Below are positions 45,589 through 54,580 of a stretch of 64,000 bases of DNA, one piece after another. How positions within the stretch are numbered: the stretch's first letter is position 1; each line of letters starts with the position of its first letter. Origin of the DNA: Gemmatimonadota bacterium (GTDB taxonomy: Bacteria; Gemmatimonadota; Gemmatimonadetes; Gemmatimonadales; Gemmatimonadaceae). Made by a program: the position numbers and the translations under genes. The notes below the pieces were generated by a model that saw nothing but the letters and a program-made list of their open reading frames with translations, was not told the origin of the DNA and made no database searches. The stretch is from positions 124,001 to 188,000 of the forward strand of contig DAHUXM010000004.1 in assembly GCA_027307165.1 (NCBI GenBank), in the 5' to 3' direction.

Positions 45589-46296
45589 TTACACCGCGGA
45601 ACGGTTCTGGATTCGTTCCACGAGCGCTGGGAGGTGGGCTATGTCCGTCAGGAAATGCGTCGGACTCGCGCTCTCGAGCTGGTCGCGGCGAAAAGGGCCC
45701 CAGAGCGCGGCTATCGAAACCACACCTGCTGCATTGCCGGCGTTGACGTCGTGCGGTGAGTCTCCGACGAAAACGGCCTCGCTCGCCTCGTAGCCCAGCT
45801 CGCCCAGGGCCATGCGGACCGGGAATGGATCGGGCTTGTGGGCGGAACAGGAGTCGCAGCCGATTTTCGACTGCATGTACGGTGCGATGCCTGTGAGATC
45901 GAGAGCGCGGTCCATCATCTCATTGGACTTGCTCGTGACGATGCCCATCGGATGGCCTGCCGCAGCGAGGTGTCCGAGGGTTTCCAGCGTTCCCGGGAAG
46001 ACCGTCGTCAGGCGATCGTGCGCGGCGCGCTGAAAGACGCGGTAGCGCGTCGTTACTGCGTCCAGCTGGTCGTCGGTCTCGCAGTATGCTTTGAGCTGGG
46101 TGGCAAGCGGGGTGCCGATTCCGGCGACCCATTCTTCCTCCGTCGGGGATCGTCCGGTAAAGCCCTCGAATGCGTGTTTGACGCTGGCGAGCAACAGGCC
46201 TATGGAATCGATGAGAGTGCCGTCCAGGTCGAAAAGGACTGCGATCGGACGGGTACGATGCTGCACTCCGGGCGCAGCTGTGTTCGGTTGTGCCAT
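45589..46296 (-). CDS. HAD-superfamily phosphatase (Gph/PpaX-like)
   Basis: A 235-residue HAD hydrolase. Motif I is VLFDLDGTLIDS near residues 20-31 with the nucleophile Asp, motif II is IVTSK, motif III Lys is in AHKPDPFPV, and motif IV is FVGDSPHDVNAG. A helical cap lies between motifs I and II, as in phosphoglycolate or pyrophosphate phosphatases. The substrate is unresolved. A TACATT box ends six bases before the ATG at 46296 and no Shine-Dalgarno is seen. Sixty-two bases separate it from the SNF2 gene upstream. Confidence 0.87.
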   Translation of the reverse strand: MAQPNTAAPGVQHRTRPIAVLFDLDGTLIDSIGLLLASVKHAFEGFTGRSPTEEEWVAGIGTPLATQLKAYCETDDQLDAVTTRYRVFQRAAHDRLTTVFPGTLETLGHLAAAGHPMGIVTSKSNEMMDRALDLTGIAPYMQSKIGCDSCSAHKPDPFPVRMALGELGYEASEAVFVGDSPHDVNAGNAAGVVSIAALWGPFRRDQLESASPTHFLTDIAHLPALVERIQNRSAV

Positions 46297-46358
46297 ATGG
46301 CGAATGTAATGGATCGCGACCCTCGATTGGGCGTATCTCGAACGGGCGTTCGAAAGCA

Positions 46359-48635
46359 TTACGGCAGCCTCTCCGGCGACATGAAGATGAGCGCGGCCAG
46401 ACGGATGCCCTTTTCACGTACCTGGTCGGGGAAACGCCGAGCTCTGTCGACAAGCTCGAGGATGGTGTCGACGGCGGCCTCGTCGGGGGAGTCGGAGAGG
46501 GTCTCGAGCGACCACTCCACCGCTAGCGGCAGTGGCTTTGTGGCCGCACTCCTGAGGCGTGTGGCGATAGCGGCGAAATGGGCTCTTCGCGCAAAGTTCG
46601 CGTTGGCGCTGGCGGCATCTGCGACGCGTGCGAGGGCTCGTCTTGCGTCGTGCACTCCGGGAATGGTTGCGCTTCCGTCTGGTGCGCCGAGTGCGTGCCA
46701 GGCGCAGCGCTGTTGATACCAGGAATCGGCAGACTGGAGTACCAACGACAGACGTGTCGCAATCTCATGGCGGAACGCCGCGTCTTCGGTGCCTTCAGCG
46801 GCTTCAGCACGGTCTGCGAGATCGGTCGCGGCTTCGACGGCGTGAGCGTCGTCGGTCAGTCCGGAAACTTCGTCCCATGCGAGCAGGGTGGCGCTGCCGT
46901 CGACGATCCACACGCCGAGCGTGGCAGCGCGGGCCGCGCGCGCCAGGGCGACGACGCGCGAGCTGCTTGCCGGATCTAACACATCGAGATCGGTGCGTCG
47001 CCATTTCTCGATCGTTGCGCGTACACGTTCGCCACGCTGGATCGTCGCTCGGTCGTTCGGTCGCGCAGACAGGTTGGTGATCGTCGAGTGACCGAACATG
47101 TGCGCGGCGAAATCCGACTTGCGCGCGATTATCTCCAGCTCATGGAGAAACATCTCCGCTCGTGGCGAAGGGCTCACAGTGTATGACATCACGCGATGGT
47201 GTCGCGAACCCATGCGTGCCAGGCGGCCGATGCGTTGCTCCACGCGAGCAGCGGTCCACGGAAGGTCGAGGTGAATCACGACGGACGCTTCCTGGAGATT
47301 CACGCCCTCGCTCAACAGATCCGTCGCGACGAGGAAGTTGATGGTTGCGTGGTTATCGAGCCGATCGTGTCGACCCTCTGGTGCGAACTGGGCGAGCACC
47401 TCCGCTCGGCTGACGGGTCCGCTTGCGATCATCGCTCCGCGGGCGGTCAACAAAGCAGCGTGCCCATCGCGTTTGACAAGCCGATAAATCGCTTCAGCGG
47501 TCTCTGCATAGCACGAGAACGCCACGACCTTCTCGGCGGGATGCGTTCGCACGACATGCCGGACGAATCCCGCGAGTACCTGGTCGTCGATCGTCCTGGC
47601 GTGCACCAGCAGCGCGTCGAGTGCCGACACGTGCTCGCGCAGTGCCGAGCCGAGCGCCGCGAGCGGAGCGGTCGCTGGAACCAGCAACTCTGCAAACGCG
47701 AGCTGCACTGCGTCGTCGCTGTACATCCACGCAGACAGCTCGGCGGCGGTAGGATACCGGCCCGTATCGAGAGATGCGAGCAGTCCATGCGAGCGTGCTA
47801 TTCTGCGTTTGAGCGCGCCGACGAGCGCCGCGTTGCTGGACACCCACTGTCGCACCAGTCCGTGCATGACGAGCCGTGTCGCGACGCCGCCGTCGCTCGG
47901 AGGCACCGGCGGCGGAAGGGCGAGAATCATGTCGAGTATGGTAGCATCCGTCGCGATCACCACCGGAGGAGCGTGCTCCACAACGGGTATGTTGCCCGCT
48001 CCGGCGTGCGCTGCTGAGTCGCGCCGCACCATGAGGGGGAGGAATTCCGCTCCGGTCATCGTGTATGCGCGTGACCCGATGAACAGAGCGGCAAGTGCCG
48101 CGACGTCATCGTGCGAATTATGCAGTGGAGTCGCAGAGAGCAGGAGAACACGGCTGAGGATGCAGAGACGTGCGAGTGCCGAGTAGCGACGAGTGCAGGT
48201 ATTCCGAAAGTTGTGAGCCTCGTCGACGATTATCAGATCGCGTCGTCTCACGGGCGGGCCCGTGCGCCCGAGTGATTCGGCCGTGACGAATTCAGCTCTG
48301 ACGTGGGTCGCGGCGAGGGCATGCAGCCACATGTCCGTGAGCGAGGCTGGGGCGATTACGGTCACTGCCTGGTAACGAGCCCCGACCGCGAGTGCGACGT
48401 ACGTCTTGCCGAGCCCGACATCGTCGCAGAGAAGCGCGCCGCCATGCTCCGATATCGTACGCTTTATGCGTGCGACCGCGGACCGCTGGTGGGGGTGAAG
48501 TGTGATGTCCCCAATGCGAAGTTGCTGCGGTTCGTCGCCAAGCATGCACGCAGCGATCGCCGCGCGTGCATCAGCGACAGAGACGACGCGCGGCTCGGCG
48601 TCCTGCTGGGTCGTGTCAATCGTTGTTGCGAGCAT
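46359..48635 (-). CDS. SNF2-family helicase/translocase of a methyltransferase-helicase cassette
   Basis: A 758-residue superfamily 2 ATPase. Q-motif-like LHPHQRSAV near residues 46-54, Walker A DDVGLGKT (71-78), DEAH (138-141), LLLSATPLHN (motif III), FSCYAETAEAIYRLV (start of the second RecA-like lobe), VATDLLSEGVNLQEA (motif V) and DLPWTAARVEQRIGRLARMG (motif VI) are all intact. The last 250 residues are helical and match nothing that I know. No nuclease domain is seen. It overlaps the methyltransferase gene by 20 bases and is the second gene of a two-gene operon. Known relatives are HepA/RapA and the DrmD helicase of DISARM. A defence role is inference. Confidence 0.88.
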   Translation of the reverse strand: MLATTIDTTQQDAEPRVVSVADARAAIAACMLGDEPQQLRIGDITLHPHQRSAVARIKRTISEHGGALLCDDVGLGKTYVALAVGARYQAVTVIAPASLTDMWLHALAATHVRAEFVTAESLGRTGPPVRRRDLIIVDEAHNFRNTCTRRYSALARLCILSRVLLLSATPLHNSHDDVAALAALFIGSRAYTMTGAEFLPLMVRRDSAAHAGAGNIPVVEHAPPVVIATDATILDMILALPPPVPPSDGGVATRLVMHGLVRQWVSSNAALVGALKRRIARSHGLLASLDTGRYPTAAELSAWMYSDDAVQLAFAELLVPATAPLAALGSALREHVSALDALLVHARTIDDQVLAGFVRHVVRTHPAEKVVAFSCYAETAEAIYRLVKRDGHAALLTARGAMIASGPVSRAEVLAQFAPEGRHDRLDNHATINFLVATDLLSEGVNLQEASVVIHLDLPWTAARVEQRIGRLARMGSRHHRVMSYTVSPSPRAEMFLHELEIIARKSDFAAHMFGHSTITNLSARPNDRATIQRGERVRATIEKWRRTDLDVLDPASSSRVVALARAARAATLGVWIVDGSATLLAWDEVSGLTDDAHAVEAATDLADRAEAAEGTEDAAFRHEIATRLSLVLQSADSWYQQRCAWHALGAPDGSATIPGVHDARRALARVADAASANANFARRAHFAAIATRLRSAATKPLPLAVEWSLETLSDSPDEAAVDTILELVDRARRFPDQVREKGIRLAALIFMSPERLP

Positions 48636-51600
48636 GGGTCCACTCGAGAAGCGGCAGGAGGGCAGATTCGTTCAAGCCATACGCGGACAGCACGAGAGCA
48701 TCGAGATCATCGTCGTCTGGCTCTTTCCCGCCACGCGCGGCTTCCGCGACCGGCGCGAGCAGTCTCACGGCGCGCGACCAGTCCGACGGGACGGGCAAGC
48801 GCGCGATCGTCCAGCCGAGATACCGGTGATAGCCGCCGCGTGCCGGCTCCGCAATCGCGCCGAGCCATGCTGCAGCTATCCGCGAGTTGAGGATGGTCGC
48901 GAGCGCGAGAGCGTCTGTCATGCAATTGCACGTCACGGAGTAACAGGTGTTGAGAGGGACTGTCGGATCACCTGCTTCGAGAACGGCTGCTCTGGGCGCG
49001 CGCCCGAAGTCGGCCCAGATCACGCGCGGCGACATGGCGCACGCACTCTCGACGCGGAAGAGGGACCACCAGCGATCCGAGCGGGAGTCGCTCCGTCGCT
49101 CGAGCGCGCGCCGGGAGCGCGCAAGCCAGCGGTGCGCGTTCGGTGGCAGCGCGCGGAACGGTGTGCCGGCGTCATCGTGGGTCCATATGATTCGCTCATC
49201 GTCCGGAGCGAGCCGCCATCGCGTCAGCGTTTCTCCCCGGACCAGCGGCCGAAGCAACTGCGTTTCGATCTCGCTCCGTCTTCCGGCCGCGGTGATGTCC
49301 GTCACCTCACCATGATTGTCGCACGCTCGAACGACAAATGCGTCGTTGCAGCCGGTCTTGACGCCGAGGTGTGGTCGTCCCAGTGCTGTGGTAAATAGTG
49401 GAGCGCCGGCGGCTGTCAGCAGATCGAATGACTCGCGAGCCCGAGGGGCGAGCAACAGCCACGGGCTCCCCGGCGAAGGATCGAGCGAAAGGTTTTCCGC
49501 AGCAACGTTCCAGTGCGAAATGTCGCTGCGATGCTGTACGCTGACTTGTACGGGACAGTTGTGTTCTGCTTCGCCTTCGGAAATGCGCGTTGCAACAAGC
49601 ATCGAAGGGTACACTGCAGCCTCGAATGCGTCGGGAGCATTGGAGTAATCGCCGAGCGCGATGATTCGGGTGCGTTCGAGTACGAGCTGGCGCGCGCCAC
49701 CGCCCGCCAGCGAGCTCCACAGCTTGGATGGTAGAAGCAGTCCCATGACGCCACCGGGCGCGAGCAGGTCCACCGATCGCTCCACGAACAGAGCCGCGAG
49801 GTCAGTCTGTCCGGCGAAGCCCTGACCGGCGCTTGCACCACGCGCTCCCTCCAACCACGCGCCACGACGGAACACGCTGAATTTCTCCCGATAGCGCGCG
49901 CGATCGTCGACGTGCATGTTGTGCACCCGAACCCAGGGCGGATTACCGACGATTACATCGAATCCACCGGACTCGGCGACATCCGCGAAATGGATCGGAT
50001 AGGCGAACGCCGGTGTCGCGCCGCGCGTGATTGCCACACGCTTTCGTCGCAACGCTCGCATGGTTGCGCGCAGTTGGAGCAGTCTGTCGCGCTGTTTCGG
50101 ATCCGGCGCCGTGCGTACGTCGAAGAGGTCGCGCGACCGGACGGCACGAACGATCTCCTTGCGCTCGAATCGGACCGCGGTGATTCGGACGTCGATCGCA
50201 TCAACTGCACGCATACGCTCCACGACGTCGAGCTGCCTGCCGAGGGAAAGCTTTCTCCGACCGCTGGATCGCGCGTATCGATCCCGTAGCGCCGATGGGC
50301 CTCGCGGTGTGGCAGCGCGCGAAGCCTGACCTGCGAATCCGTCGTCCGCAAGCGAGTTCCCGACGCGAATCTGGCGATCCAGATTCGGCAGAGGAATGAC
50401 ACGCATGGGGTCCTGCTCGTCGCTGTCGATCACGGCAGACAGCCACAGCCGCAACTCGCACAGCCATACTGCTGTCGGACTGGAATCCACGCCGAAAATC
50501 GACTGTCGGAGCACCGAGCGCCGCACATTGCTCGGCGAGTCCGTATCACCGAGCGCGATCCGCAGGCGTGCCATGCGTTCGAGTGCATAGACGAGGAATG
50601 CGCCGGAGCCGCAGGCGGGATCGAGAATTCGCAGGCGCTTCACGTCTTCCAGAAGGCGTGGATTCGGGCCCGTTCTCGGTGTCTGGTCATCGAGCAGCAG
50701 CTCGGCCTGTCTGCGTGTCATGCCGGTGCGTTCGAGCGCGCTCCGGAATGCGAGAGTGGTGAGCCTTTCCACGAAGCGCTGTGGAGTGTAGAACACTCCT
50801 CCGCGTTTGCGGTCGCCGGATTCCATCAGCGATTCGAAGACCTTGCCGAGCATCTCGGGATCGATGGCGGCCTGGGACCATGTGGTTGCGTCCTCACGCG
50901 CGGTGAAGCGAAATCGAATGAGGACATCACCGAAGAGAGCGCCGAGTGCGTCGTCGGAGAATCGCGACTGGCGGTGGATGCGCTCGACGGTCGTGCGGGA
51001 GAAGAGTCCGCCGTTGAGGAACGGGACGCGTCCGAACGCCCGGGATCGCGGTGCGCGTTCGGAGACCCGCGTGTTCAGCGTTCCAAAGAAGAGCGGCTCG
51101 AGTACGCGGCGCTGATACGCGCCTCCGCTCGCAATACACTCGGTGAATCCGTTGGCGAGAAAGCCGAAGTCGTTGTTGAGCCAACCCTTGGTTTCGAGAA
51201 ACGAAAGGAAGAGAAGGCGGCTCGTCGTGAGAATCGCAATCTCGCGCGCATCTGCGACTGGCACTTGTGATGGGAGAGAGTCGACGAGTGAGTCGATCGC
51301 ATGCGCGAGAGCATGAAAGAACCGGCGGGTAACCGCATCACGGCCGAGTACGTCGAGCCAGCGCATGTGACGCATCTCATCCCCGTAAGCGGCGCTTGCC
51401 GCTGACAACGCGCACAACGTCTCCGCGTCACTGTCCACGACGTTGCCGCGCTCGGAGATCAATGCGACGATCTGTGGGCTGGAGCGAACGCGGCGCCACG
51501 TTGCGATGCCGAGTGTCGATCCGTCGCGATGACCGACGACGACGAGCCAGAGGAGGTGCGGCGCCTGCATCGTGAGCTGGCGCGCTATCACGGTTATTGC

Positions 51601-51831
51601 TTCCCGCACGTTCGCAGCGTGTTCGATCTCTGCGCTCAGCGCGCGCAACGATCCCTCGCCAGAGCTTATGCGGGCTGAGAGTATTGCGGTGGGAAGTCCG
51701 AGCCGATCGCGCGACGCAGCATCGAGCGGATGTGACTGGTCGGTGAAGCCCAGCGTCGCGAGCAGCGCGTCCATTCCACCCTCGTGAGCGGTGGCGTCGA
51801 TGATCCGCGCGGCATGAGTGAGAGAGTCCAC
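48616..51831 (-). CDS. Eco57I/PglX-like N6-adenine DNA methyltransferase
   Basis: A 1071-residue protein of the type IIG/BREX PglX class. Residues about 180-380 show the family's pre-catalytic region (LLFLSFLETKGWL, VPFLNGGLFS, IDPEMLGKVFESLM, KRGGVFYTPQRFVERL). Motif I DPACGSGAFL lies at about 404-413 and motif IV NPPW at about 630, marking an N6-adenine methylase. A TaqI-like recognition domain follows (LGVKTGCNDAFVV, LLRPLVRGETLTRW). The first 180 residues show no PD-(D/E)xK nuclease motif, unlike true type IIG enzymes. It is first in the operon with the SNF2 gene. This cassette lacks any BREX or DISARM partner within the window. Confidence 0.9.
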   Translation of the reverse strand: MDSLTHAARIIDATAHEGGMDALLATLGFTDQSHPLDAASRDRLGLPTAILSARISSGEGSLRALSAEIEHAANVREAITVIARQLTMQAPHLLWLVVVGHRDGSTLGIATWRRVRSSPQIVALISERGNVVDSDAETLCALSAASAAYGDEMRHMRWLDVLGRDAVTRRFFHALAHAIDSLVDSLPSQVPVADAREIAILTTSRLLFLSFLETKGWLNNDFGFLANGFTECIASGGAYQRRVLEPLFFGTLNTRVSERAPRSRAFGRVPFLNGGLFSRTTVERIHRQSRFSDDALGALFGDVLIRFRFTAREDATTWSQAAIDPEMLGKVFESLMESGDRKRGGVFYTPQRFVERLTTLAFRSALERTGMTRRQAELLLDDQTPRTGPNPRLLEDVKRLRILDPACGSGAFLVYALERMARLRIALGDTDSPSNVRRSVLRQSIFGVDSSPTAVWLCELRLWLSAVIDSDEQDPMRVIPLPNLDRQIRVGNSLADDGFAGQASRAATPRGPSALRDRYARSSGRRKLSLGRQLDVVERMRAVDAIDVRITAVRFERKEIVRAVRSRDLFDVRTAPDPKQRDRLLQLRATMRALRRKRVAITRGATPAFAYPIHFADVAESGGFDVIVGNPPWVRVHNMHVDDRARYREKFSVFRRGAWLEGARGASAGQGFAGQTDLAALFVERSVDLLAPGGVMGLLLPSKLWSSLAGGGARQLVLERTRIIALGDYSNAPDAFEAAVYPSMLVATRISEGEAEHNCPVQVSVQHRSDISHWNVAAENLSLDPSPGSPWLLLAPRARESFDLLTAAGAPLFTTALGRPHLGVKTGCNDAFVVRACDNHGEVTDITAAGRRSEIETQLLRPLVRGETLTRWRLAPDDERIIWTHDDAGTPFRALPPNAHRWLARSRRALERRSDSRSDRWWSLFRVESACAMSPRVIWADFGRAPRAAVLEAGDPTVPLNTCYSVTCNCMTDALALATILNSRIAAAWLGAIAEPARGGYHRYLGWTIARLPVPSDWSRAVRLLAPVAEAARGGKEPDDDDLDALVLSAYGLNESALLPLLEWTHARNND

Positions 51832-52513: not shown

Positions 52514-52561
52514 TCGACCAAGTTCAGTATCATCATCACTCAATTGTGCGTCGTGAGCGCG

Positions 52562-54580
52562 ATGAGCTACCCACGTGCGCGACGCCCGGAGAACCTCTTG
52601 CGCTCCCGTTTGCTCTTTCGCACGCTGACTGCCGCGATTTCACTCACTCTCGTATCATCGCCTGCACTGGCGCAGGCTCCCCACATCACGCCAGCCGGAG
52701 ACCCGTCGGTCAACGCCGACACGATCTACCGGCTTGCGGTCAAGCCGGAACAATTTCCTGAAGAATCAGGAGTTCTGCTGCTGGACGACGGAGTCCTGCA
52801 CATCGAGGCCGACGGGCGCGAGGAATCGACATATCGGCAGATCATCGAGATATTGCGCCCCGAAGCCGTCGATCGGTATAGAGAGCAGCAGTTTTCCTAT
52901 GCACCCAAGCATCAGCGATTCACGCTGAACTGGATTCGCGTGGTCAAGCCGGACGGCACGGTCGTGAGCGCGGCGCCGTCGCAGGTGCAGGAGTCGGACG
53001 TGCCAGCGCAGTTCGGTGATCCGACCTATTCGGATCAGAAAGTCGTACGGGTATCCCTTACCGGTGTCGCGCCCGGCACGATCGTCGATCTGAGCTACAC
53101 GACGACGGAGTTGAAGCCGTTTCTACCCGGTGACTTCTTCGACTCGTGGAACGTGAGCAGCGGGCCGCAGGTGATGCGCTCGCGTTACGTGGTCGATGTC
53201 CCCGCTGGCTTCACACCGCGCATCCGCGAGGACAATCTCAACTTCGCACGTACGGAGAAGTCGGCGAACGGACGCCACGTCTATACGTGGGCGACCAGCA
53301 ACATCAAGAGCGTCAAGTCCGAAGCATTCGAGTCGGATTCGAACGGCGTGTACATGTCCGTCATGGTATCATCGCCGATCACGTGGGCGGCGATTGGCAA
53401 GTGGTACGCTGGAAATGCGCGCGACCGATACGTGACCTCGCCCGCCGTCGATTCCGCCATCACGCAGGCTGTCAAAGGCGCCCGGACGCTGGATGATTCC
53501 ATCCGTGCGGTGCATCGCTGGGTGGCGCAGGACATTCGGTACGTCAGCATCGCGCTTGGATTGGGCGGCTATCAGCCGAGGTCGCCCGACGAGGTGGTAC
53601 GCACCGGATTCGGGGATTGCAAAGACAAGGCTACGCTCTTCATCGTCGCGCTCAAGCGATTGGGGATCACAGCGTATCCTGTAATTCTGAATTCGAGTGG
53701 AGGTGTGCAGCGAAGCATGCCATCCATCGCGCAGCTCGACCACGTAATCGCGGCTTTCAAACGGCCTGGCGCGACGACATACGAATTTGCCGATCTCACC
53801 GCATCGCTCACGCCGCTCGGTGAGCTGCCGTTCGATTATCAGGGAGCATTCGGAATGATCGTCCATCCGGATGGGAACATCGAGGAGATGACGTTCCCCA
53901 AGGCCCCCATTGCGGATAATTCCGGCTCGCGCCGCATCGTCGGCACGCTTTCAGCCGACGGGCAGTTCACCGGGCGGTATGAAGAGAGCGGACTCGGTGC
54001 GCGTCAGTATTCGTTGCGGAACGCTTTCGAGAACCCGCTGGATTCCGTTCAACGGGCCAAGGCCGCCAACGCCATTGCGGGTAACGTTTTCGAGGGCGCA
54101 CAGGGCGACAGTCTCACCGGATTCGCCGGGAAGGATCTCGCGGCGAAACCGAGGATGTCGGTCGTCGTTCGAAACGGGCGAGCTGCATCGATGGCAGGGA
54201 CCAACGCGATCCTCACCAATCCGTTCGGCACGATGAGCGGGTTTTCCGCCGCGGCGCAGGAAATAGAAACAGCCGGGCCGAGGCTGTTTCCGATTGCAGC
54301 AGACAAGATCTTCGGGTACGGCGTGACGACGATGGAATTCCGCCTCACGATGCCGGAGGGATGGCACGCTCAACTACCGGCCGATGTGGATGCGTCGAGC
54401 GAGTTCGGCAAGTACCACAGCGAGTACGCACAGTCAGGCCGCGAGCTGGTGCTGAAGCGAACGATCACCGGTGCAGGGGGCGACTATGCTCCGGATCAAC
54501 TCAAGGCCATGCTCGAGTGGATGCGCAAGATCGCGACGGACGACGCGAAGCTGATCGTGATCGACAAGGGAGCGCGCTGA
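52562..54580 (+). CDS. Exported DUF3857/transglutaminase-like protein
   Basis: A 672-residue protein with a signal peptide ending PALAQA (about residues 33-38). Residues 50-290 match the DUF3857 beta domain (YRQIIEILRPEAVDRY, then YSDQKVVRVSLTGVAPGTIVD). A transglutaminase-like domain follows with the catalytic triad visible: Cys in TGFGDCKDKATL near 355, His in QLDHVIAAF near 396, and Asp in FADLTAS near 411. The C-terminal 230 residues form a DUF3858-like beta domain. Members are periplasmic or surface proteins common in Bacteroidota and Gemmatimonadota. Substrate is unknown. An upstream TTG (52544) is possible; the ATG at 52562 is preferred. Confidence 0.85.
   Translation: MSYPRARRPENLLRSRLLFRTLTAAISLTLVSSPALAQAPHITPAGDPSVNADTIYRLAVKPEQFPEESGVLLLDDGVLHIEADGREESTYRQIIEILRPEAVDRYREQQFSYAPKHQRFTLNWIRVVKPDGTVVSAAPSQVQESDVPAQFGDPTYSDQKVVRVSLTGVAPGTIVDLSYTTTELKPFLPGDFFDSWNVSSGPQVMRSRYVVDVPAGFTPRIREDNLNFARTEKSANGRHVYTWATSNIKSVKSEAFESDSNGVYMSVMVSSPITWAAIGKWYAGNARDRYVTSPAVDSAITQAVKGARTLDDSIRAVHRWVAQDIRYVSIALGLGGYQPRSPDEVVRTGFGDCKDKATLFIVALKRLGITAYPVILNSSGGVQRSMPSIAQLDHVIAAFKRPGATTYEFADLTASLTPLGELPFDYQGAFGMIVHPDGNIEEMTFPKAPIADNSGSRRIVGTLSADGQFTGRYEESGLGARQYSLRNAFENPLDSVQRAKAANAIAGNVFEGAQGDSLTGFAGKDLAAKPRMSVVVRNGRAASMAGTNAILTNPFGTMSGFSAAAQEIETAGPRLFPIAADKIFGYGVTTMEFRLTMPEGWHAQLPADVDASSEFGKYHSEYAQSGRELVLKRTITGAGGDYAPDQLKAMLEWMRKIATDDAKLIVIDKGAR

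Follow-up and report, generated by a model that had tools for sequence, protein, structure and literature searches.

The DNA analyzed here, a stretch of 64,000 nucleotides from a member of the Gemmatimonadaceae (contig DAHUXM010000004.1, positions 124,001 to 188,000; below, the window), carries on its minus strand a gene for a gamma-class (Eco57I/MmeI-like) N6-adenine DNA methyltransferase of 1,071 amino acids (48616..51831) and, adjoining it, a gene for a SNF2-type helicase/translocase of 758 amino acids (46359..48635), whose first 20 bases are shared with the 3' end of the methyltransferase gene. The interpretation that we favor, and to which we give about even chances, is that these proteins are a vertically inherited methyltransferase-translocase pair without a recognizable nuclease that would mark the chromosome and may exclude unmarked DNA. 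Judged by sequence, neither protein has a nuclease motif or belongs to a nuclease family, the methyltransferase and motor motifs are intact, and the two genes adjoin. A first-pass annotation of this DNA had described the first 180 residues of the methyltransferase (51292-51831) as an alpha/beta domain with no visible nuclease pattern and had reasoned that, if cleavage was absent from both proteins, an unlinked nuclease or a non-cleaving mechanism would be needed. The lack of a pattern was borne out, the alpha/beta domain was recovered for residues 1-150, and the partner helicase likewise lacks a nuclease family, so that the reasoning applies.

Methyltransferase architecture and the N-terminal domain

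The GTG start at 51831 lies directly 3' of an in-frame TGA and the frame runs to 48616, which indicates a real open reading frame (ORF). A full-length copy in genome G143 is 95% identical and has the same start position. Residues 1-150 (51382..51831) form an N-terminal alpha/beta domain in the place of the Type IIG nuclease, a probable degenerate restriction endonuclease (REase)-like domain. It is followed by a helical spacer as in MmeI (residues 151-325; 50857..51381), for which the structure comparison tool VIA gave Z 10.9 and a root mean square deviation (rmsd) of 2.8 over 129 aligned residues (model 131-324 on MmeI 157-290). Next come the methyltransferase domain (residues 326-757; 49561..50856), with DPACGSGAF at 404 and NPPW at 630, and a TaqI_C-like target-recognition region (TRD; residues 770-1065; 48637..49524), all on the minus strand.

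Both Pfam matches of the methyltransferase, Eco57I (9.7e-21, residues 444-735) and N6_Mtase (6e-10), were over the cut-off. NPPW is kept in 51 of 51 family sequences, and NPPx is kept in 37 of the 40 Gemmatimonadota copies of a second set, the three misses being contig-end fragments by reading. The TRD was assigned from a weak TaqI_C match (E 0.0069) and a BseCI match over residues 789-1040. When the whole methyltransferase was searched by sequence against solved structures, seven matches were obtained, including BseCI (8.6e-11), MmeI (0.16), and BsaXI (0.32), and none was a nuclease. The methyltransferase looks intact, and a gamma-class methyltransferase and a TRD stand in one chain, as in Type IIG enzymes.

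In order to evaluate the N-terminal domain for a catalytic site, residues 30-160 were searched for the pattern D-x(5-35)-[DEQ]-x-K, with the last x small or hydrophobic. The pattern was found in none of 51 family sequences, the window copy included, and in none of the 40 sequences of the second, overlapping Gemmatimonadota set; three incomplete sequences (L089, L098, and L115) were left out of this census. In contrast, it was present in all 11 MmeI-like enzymes from the same order that served as positive controls, within the first 250 residues in 10 of them and deeper, after a longer N terminus, in the window genome's own copy. The pattern also matched 19 times in 38 distant relatives, mostly off the aligned position by reading. 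No single D, E, K, or H in residues 1-160 reached 85% across the 51 sequences, and position 157 was K or R in 86% when the two residues were pooled. Within the family of the window genome (n = 31), D135 (31/31), E137 (28/31), R63 (30/31), H155 (28/31), and R157 (30/31) were well kept, D or E was retained at 137 and 160, and positions 37, 77, 133, and 151 stood at about 87 to 90%. The AlphaFold model places D135 and E137 where a helix (133-148) starts. No conserved triad of the PD-(D/E)xK type was found in the domain, and with 0/51 and 0/40 the absence is systematic rather than the decay of one copy. In an alignment of 23 relatives from outside the Gemmatimonadota, E-x-K was seen by reading at the aligned column only in L130, and thus the motif was probably lost before the phylum arose.

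The N-terminal domain was also the least conserved region. Mean identity among 21 own-family genomes was 35% there, compared with 54% in both methyltransferase parts, 52% in residues 770-1000, and 47% in residues 1001-1065; towards families f2 and f3 the values were 20% for the N-terminal domain, 42 and 38% for the methyltransferase parts, and 37 and 29% for the two C-terminal segments. The target-recognition region is thus nearly as conserved as the catalytic core. In the control MmeI-like enzyme, identity falls from 77% to 47 to 48% in two C-terminal windows.

An AlphaFold model of residues 1-340, built with 45 sequences, had a mean predicted local distance difference test (pLDDT) score of 94.6, with 91 to 98 in each ten-residue block over residues 1-150, and these residues were predicted as a separate domain of helices (H) and strands (E) in the order H H H E E H E E E H. 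The peptide quoted in the first-pass annotation falls within it (residues 93-112). With residues 1-180 alone as the query, neither NCBIfam nor PADLOC gave a family at E values of up to 1, and the only Pfam match was the chance-level Phage_CP76 (E 0.078), so the profile search against nuclease families that had been proposed as a check returned no nuclease. Searches of solved structures gave one chance match with the wider profile A3, and the MmeI spacer (0.074) plus one chance match with profile A2. In the structure comparison, which was the other proposed check, no nuclease fold with an intact triad emerged; the nuclease-like matches were weak, with DrdV residues 1-142 at Z 5.0 (rmsd, 4.3; 118 aligned) and BpuSI at Z 5.1 (rmsd, 8.6), neither of which reaches the tool's guide value of 8. 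Further nuclease-like rows were the Hantaan cap-snatching endonuclease (4.5), a Cas4-like protein (4.5), and SPARDA (4.1). The 50 VIA rows listed for the window model do not include BREX PglX, an absence that carries no weight for or against a match, and Foldseek found nothing at E 0.001 for this model in a viral library.

The N-terminal domain of L130, the relative with EVK at the aligned position, was folded as a control (pLDDT, 89.2; order H H E E E H E E E E E H H). Its top VIA row was the DrdV nuclease domain (Z 5.7; rmsd, 4.1; 117 aligned), followed by CamS (5.3), a Cas4-like protein (5.0), and family II pyrophosphatases (4.0 to 4.7); Foldseek gave no PDB match at E 0.001. The L130 fold backs the REase-like assignment weakly, since DrdV reaches just Z 5.7 with the other rows close behind. 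Profile comparisons join the two groups through intermediates: the own-family Gemmatimonadota group to the f2-like group at 97.8 and to an intermediate group (Anaerolineae, one cyanobacterium, and two others) at 94.2, the intermediate to the cyanobacterial group at 99.1, and the latter to the wide group that contains L130 at 46.1 (E 2e-4), with shuffled controls reaching at most 0.62. Several direct links failed (own-family to cyanobacterial, 1.6; f2-like to wide, 0.11; f2-like to cyanobacterial, 19.4; intermediate to wide, 8.1). That the domain is a degenerate restriction-nuclease domain is probable but not proven.

The helicase partner, descent, and loss

The motor motifs of the helicase are, on sequence, intact, with Walker A at 71, DEAH at 138, and motif VI at 467. 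DEAH and motif VI were present in 32 of 32 other copies and GKT in 25, the seven misses probably being due to the chosen start. A same-strand helicase ORF overlaps the methyltransferase ORF or lies within about 0.5 kb of it at all 40 Gemmatimonadota loci (L034-L073; stop-to-stop ORFs). The best-scoring named models for the helicase come from defense systems. No PLD or other nuclease family was found in the window helicase with Pfam, and PLDc_2 was absent from all 26 Gemmatimonadota helicases, the window copy included, as well as from three f10 helicases and one f5 helicase tested singly (L054, L057, L058, and L073). The last column conserved to at least 90% in 26 aligned helicases is K506, before a C terminus of about 250 residues.

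Related methyltransferases near related SNF2 helicases also occur in cyanobacteria, Chloroflexota, archaea, and others, and there the helicase has an N-terminal PLDc_2 domain (5/5 in one set of sequences from outside the phylum and 16/24 in another). These are farther relatives; the eight copies without PLDc_2 are nearer ones, from Myxococcota, Acidobacteriota, and proteobacterial contigs and one viral contig, and the PLD-less form is thus wider than the order. Six related pairs with short helicases lacking PLDc_2 (L117, L119, L105, L109, L108, and L111) came from Proteobacteria (two from ruminant gut), Myxococcales, and an acidobacterium, with L105 and L109 cut by contig ends. The helicase ORFs of family f10 (L054-L058) are mostly about 1,030 to 1,110 amino acids long and have about 200 extra N-terminal residues. 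This extension, in which no Pfam PLD family was found in the three tested singly or in L055, is possibly the remnant of a lost nuclease.

A restriction-like methyltransferase would be expected to be mobile and patchily distributed. The methyltransferase studied here was instead found in 247 of 288 genomes of the order Gemmatimonadales, in 143 of the 159 good genomes, and in 75 of 79 genera; the helicase was found in 235 of 288 genomes and 138 of the good ones. A class sample had methyltransferase matches in 106 of 246 genomes (14 of about 145 outside the order, by row count), and a phylum sample in 137 of 249, largely members of the order. A contig search with the single methyltransferase sequence returned no relative, and one with an alignment as the query returned 80 loci.

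Distances in the methyltransferase followed those in rpoB (rho 0.87, 26 genomes), as did those in the helicase (0.76, 19 genomes). For the control MmeI-like enzyme the correlation was 0.06 in 10 genomes, versus 0.92 for the methyltransferase in the same 10. The 26 genomes exclude G192, in which rpoB was not found, and G076, G276, and G322, in which it was split; of 23 helicases, those of G070, G052, and G076 were dropped by the requirement for a BLAST span over 300 residues. One rpoB, that of G081 (L207), is just 51 to 52% identical to those of nine other tabled genomes, which is odd for the order; without this genome the values were 0.88 for the methyltransferase, 0.76 for the helicase, and 0.15 for the control (9 genomes). 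At E 1e-100 the control enzyme was found in 19 of 288 genomes and the methyltransferase in 218 (row count). The window genome's copy of the control, L003 (G000:C4:74914-78384), has MmeI_N, a spacer, methyltransferase, TRD, and an ExK motif (FAIEAK). This enzyme has a patchy distribution, and across families its distances do not track those of rpoB, whereas the methyltransferase-helicase pair appears, from these sequence comparisons, to behave as a core locus of the order, kept by descent in most genomes.

Both genes were matched in 232 of the 288 genomes, the methyltransferase alone in 15, and the helicase alone in 3, in which the helicase was cut by a contig start. Six of the 15 methyltransferase-only genomes were examined. 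G050 has a divergent helicase, the locus ends at a contig edge in G136 and G222, and in G135 and G091 the methyltransferase is truncated and a helicase match is missing. The methyltransferase of G174 (L253) is 47% identical over window residues 18-1026 and keeps NPPW, again with no helicase match; a sigma-factor gene starts (first ATG) 87 bases after it. At locus L044, which shares the neighbors of G174, a homologous sigma-factor gene (75% identical) follows the helicase. Loss looks one-sided: a helicase without a methyltransferase was not seen, and the reverse was seen at least once. This pattern would fit a motor that is harmful without the mark.

Target motif, proposed function, and alternatives

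G174 is putatively Gemmatirosa kalamazoonensis KBS708, whose published methylome contains the N6-adenine motifs RGATCY, ATGCAC, and CCAGN7TCA, each >99% methylated (PMC3974934). Five methyltransferase-family scans of G174 found only the homologue of the window enzyme and an HsdM-like protein, with no D12, N6_N4, or Dam family member to take RGATCY. CCAGN7TCA looks like a Type I site, and no HsdS family was found in six ORFs scanned from the HsdM-like gene onward, ORFs upstream of it not having been scanned. Because there are two N6-methyltransferase loci for three motifs, at least one G174 methyltransferase was missed. Since single-TRD gamma enzymes often read a short asymmetric site, the G174 homologue most likely makes ATGCAC, an assignment in which we have moderate confidence. 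Some gamma-class enzymes read palindromes, and RGATCY is the alternative motif for this homologue. The intact motifs and the methylome of this putative relative support chromosome marking as a probable function.

In the mechanism that we propose, the N-terminal domain would be a restriction-nuclease fold that is no longer active and is retained for its structural role, and the methyltransferase would put N6-methyladenine (m6A) on one lineage-fixed motif, with ATGCAC as the best guess. The SNF2 protein would be its partner, a DNA-tracking motor that detects the mark; DNA lacking the mark would be stalled, stripped, or excluded. A similar non-cleaving exclusion has been proposed for BREX. The function always in place would be marking of the chromosome, and the helicase would serve to exclude unmarked DNA. 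The model for SNF2 action follows proposals for DISARM, for which a passage of PMC9142583 puts forward a replication block by the loaded motor. More tentatively, the pair may descend from a restriction-like system in which the methyltransferase had lost its N-terminal nuclease and the helicase its PLD nuclease, as in some relatives outside the phylum, and which was then domesticated in the Gemmatimonadales as a core genome-marking and DNA-surveillance machine. A single m6A signature, which may be ATGCAC, would then be common to most of the order and be recognized by an SNF2 motor that has no nuclease.

Known systems resemble the pair in part. Type IIG enzymes are described in a passage of PMC3874165 as gamma-methyltransferases with N-terminal cleavage domains, and Type IIG/IIL enzymes such as MmeI, DrdV, and BpuSI have the same order of N-terminal domain, helical spacer, gamma-methyltransferase, and TRD. 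Unlike them, the window enzyme has no catalytic motif in the N-terminal domain, has a separate SNF2 partner gene, occurs in most genomes of the order, and follows rpoB. Class 1 DISARM (DrmMI, DrmD) likewise combines a methyltransferase with an SNF2-like helicase, and the DrmMI model scored 90 bits on the window methyltransferase; however, the 102 bits of the DrmD model on the window helicase are far below its curated cut-off of 610. DpdE was the top NCBIfam model on the helicase at 105 bits (cut-off, 500), and BREX PglX (BREX_2) matched weakly over the methyltransferase at 64 bits (curated cut-off, 400). Ten chosen neighboring proteins, adjacent genes included, had no PADLOC match, the rest of the genome not having been searched; among these ten there was no DrmA, DrmB, or Dpd family, and no BrxC or PglZ to accompany PglX as in BREX. 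The N-terminal domain of BrxX resembles the dimerization domain of M.EcoKI, according to a passage of PMC12839542. The distribution and descent fit a CcrM-like core methyltransferase, widespread in its lineage and vertically inherited, and conservation of the TRD hints that the one fixed specificity of such an enzyme may apply here too. Literature searches turned up no paper that we recognized as dealing with this methyltransferase-helicase pair.

One alternative, unlikely though worth weighing, is that the pair restricts DNA with an unlinked nuclease: the helicase, activated by unmethylated sites, would bring in a PLD nuclease or another nuclease of the host. The ancestor of the pair may have been a cutter, because the helicases of farther relatives carry PLDc_2, and in the part of PMC9142583 that deals with DrmC, DISARM is reported not to need it and recruitment of other PLD nucleases is proposed for systems without it. 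However, the ten neighbors gave no PADLOC match, no nuclease was seen by eye in the recurring neighbor clusters (which include shadow ORFs and were not scanned with Pfam), and the conserved TRD and the descent with rpoB set the pair apart from the MmeI-like restriction enzyme that this genome also encodes. Those last two features, together with presence in most genomes and the retention of the methyltransferase without a helicase in G174, would suit a CcrM-like regulatory methyltransferase that controls expression or replication, with an SNF2 protein that just clears or loads DNA. We consider this about as improbable as the unlinked nuclease: of the 247 genomes with the methyltransferase, 232 also have a helicase match, which seems too constant an association for an accessory factor, the best-scoring helicase models come from defense systems, and the methyltransferase diverges fast, being about 45 to 51% identical where rpoB is 77 to 83%. 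An enzyme that still cuts, by way of a non-canonical nuclease site in its N-terminal domain, seems very unlikely. The domain does sit at the position of the Type IIG cutter, and R63, D135, E137, H155, R157, and D160 are conserved in the own family, but none of these positions is kept as one residue at 85% across the 51 sequences, D135 and E137 are at a helix start, and no region of the protein is less conserved.

Several points weigh against a nuclease-free marking and exclusion pair. Its function and mechanism are what we infer from the proteins' sequences, and the nuclease search covered the pair and the chosen neighbors, so that a nuclease elsewhere in the genome would be compatible with the results. 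The fold of the N-terminal domain is weakly assigned from the predicted model: unrelated CamS proteins score up to Z 6.0 and mitoribosomal proteins up to 5.6, VIA values at this level may reflect just a common arrangement, Foldseek found no PDB match at E 0.001, and the direct profile comparison between the own-family group and the wide, ExK-bearing group of L130 failed at 0.12. The lack of PLDc_2 is not peculiar to the order, being shared by eight of 24 outside helicases, which slightly lowers the odds both of our interpretation and of the domestication reading. Since 16 of the 159 good genomes have no methyltransferase match, the methyltransferase is not essential. Within the own family alone, the rpoB correlations fall to 0.71 for the methyltransferase and 0.54 for the helicase, with the control at 0.47 (8 genomes); descent is thus clear across families and less sharp within one. 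The one-sided loss comes from few genomes, with six of 15 methyltransferase-only cases examined, and motif assignment is incomplete, with two loci for the three m6A motifs of G174.

A nuclease-less methyltransferase kept by descent through most of an order would be a testable case of a defense system turned into a core function, and the pair would provide a natural setting in which to ask how systems like BREX and DISARM work when DNA is not cut. A ready comparison is Gemmatirosa kalamazoonensis, which has a published methylome and, if it is G174, has naturally lost the helicase.

Neighboring genes

Downstream of the helicase gene, and sharing one base with it, is a gene for a HAD-family phosphatase (45589..46359, minus strand; HAD_2, 6e-39). 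Homologues occur at 13 of 20 own-family loci, four of five f10 loci, three of nine f2 loci, and one of two f3 loci. The phosphatase is recurring chromosomal context and no working part of the pair. Upstream of the pair, and divergently transcribed, is a gene for a DUF3857/transglutaminase-like protein (window positions 52544-54580).

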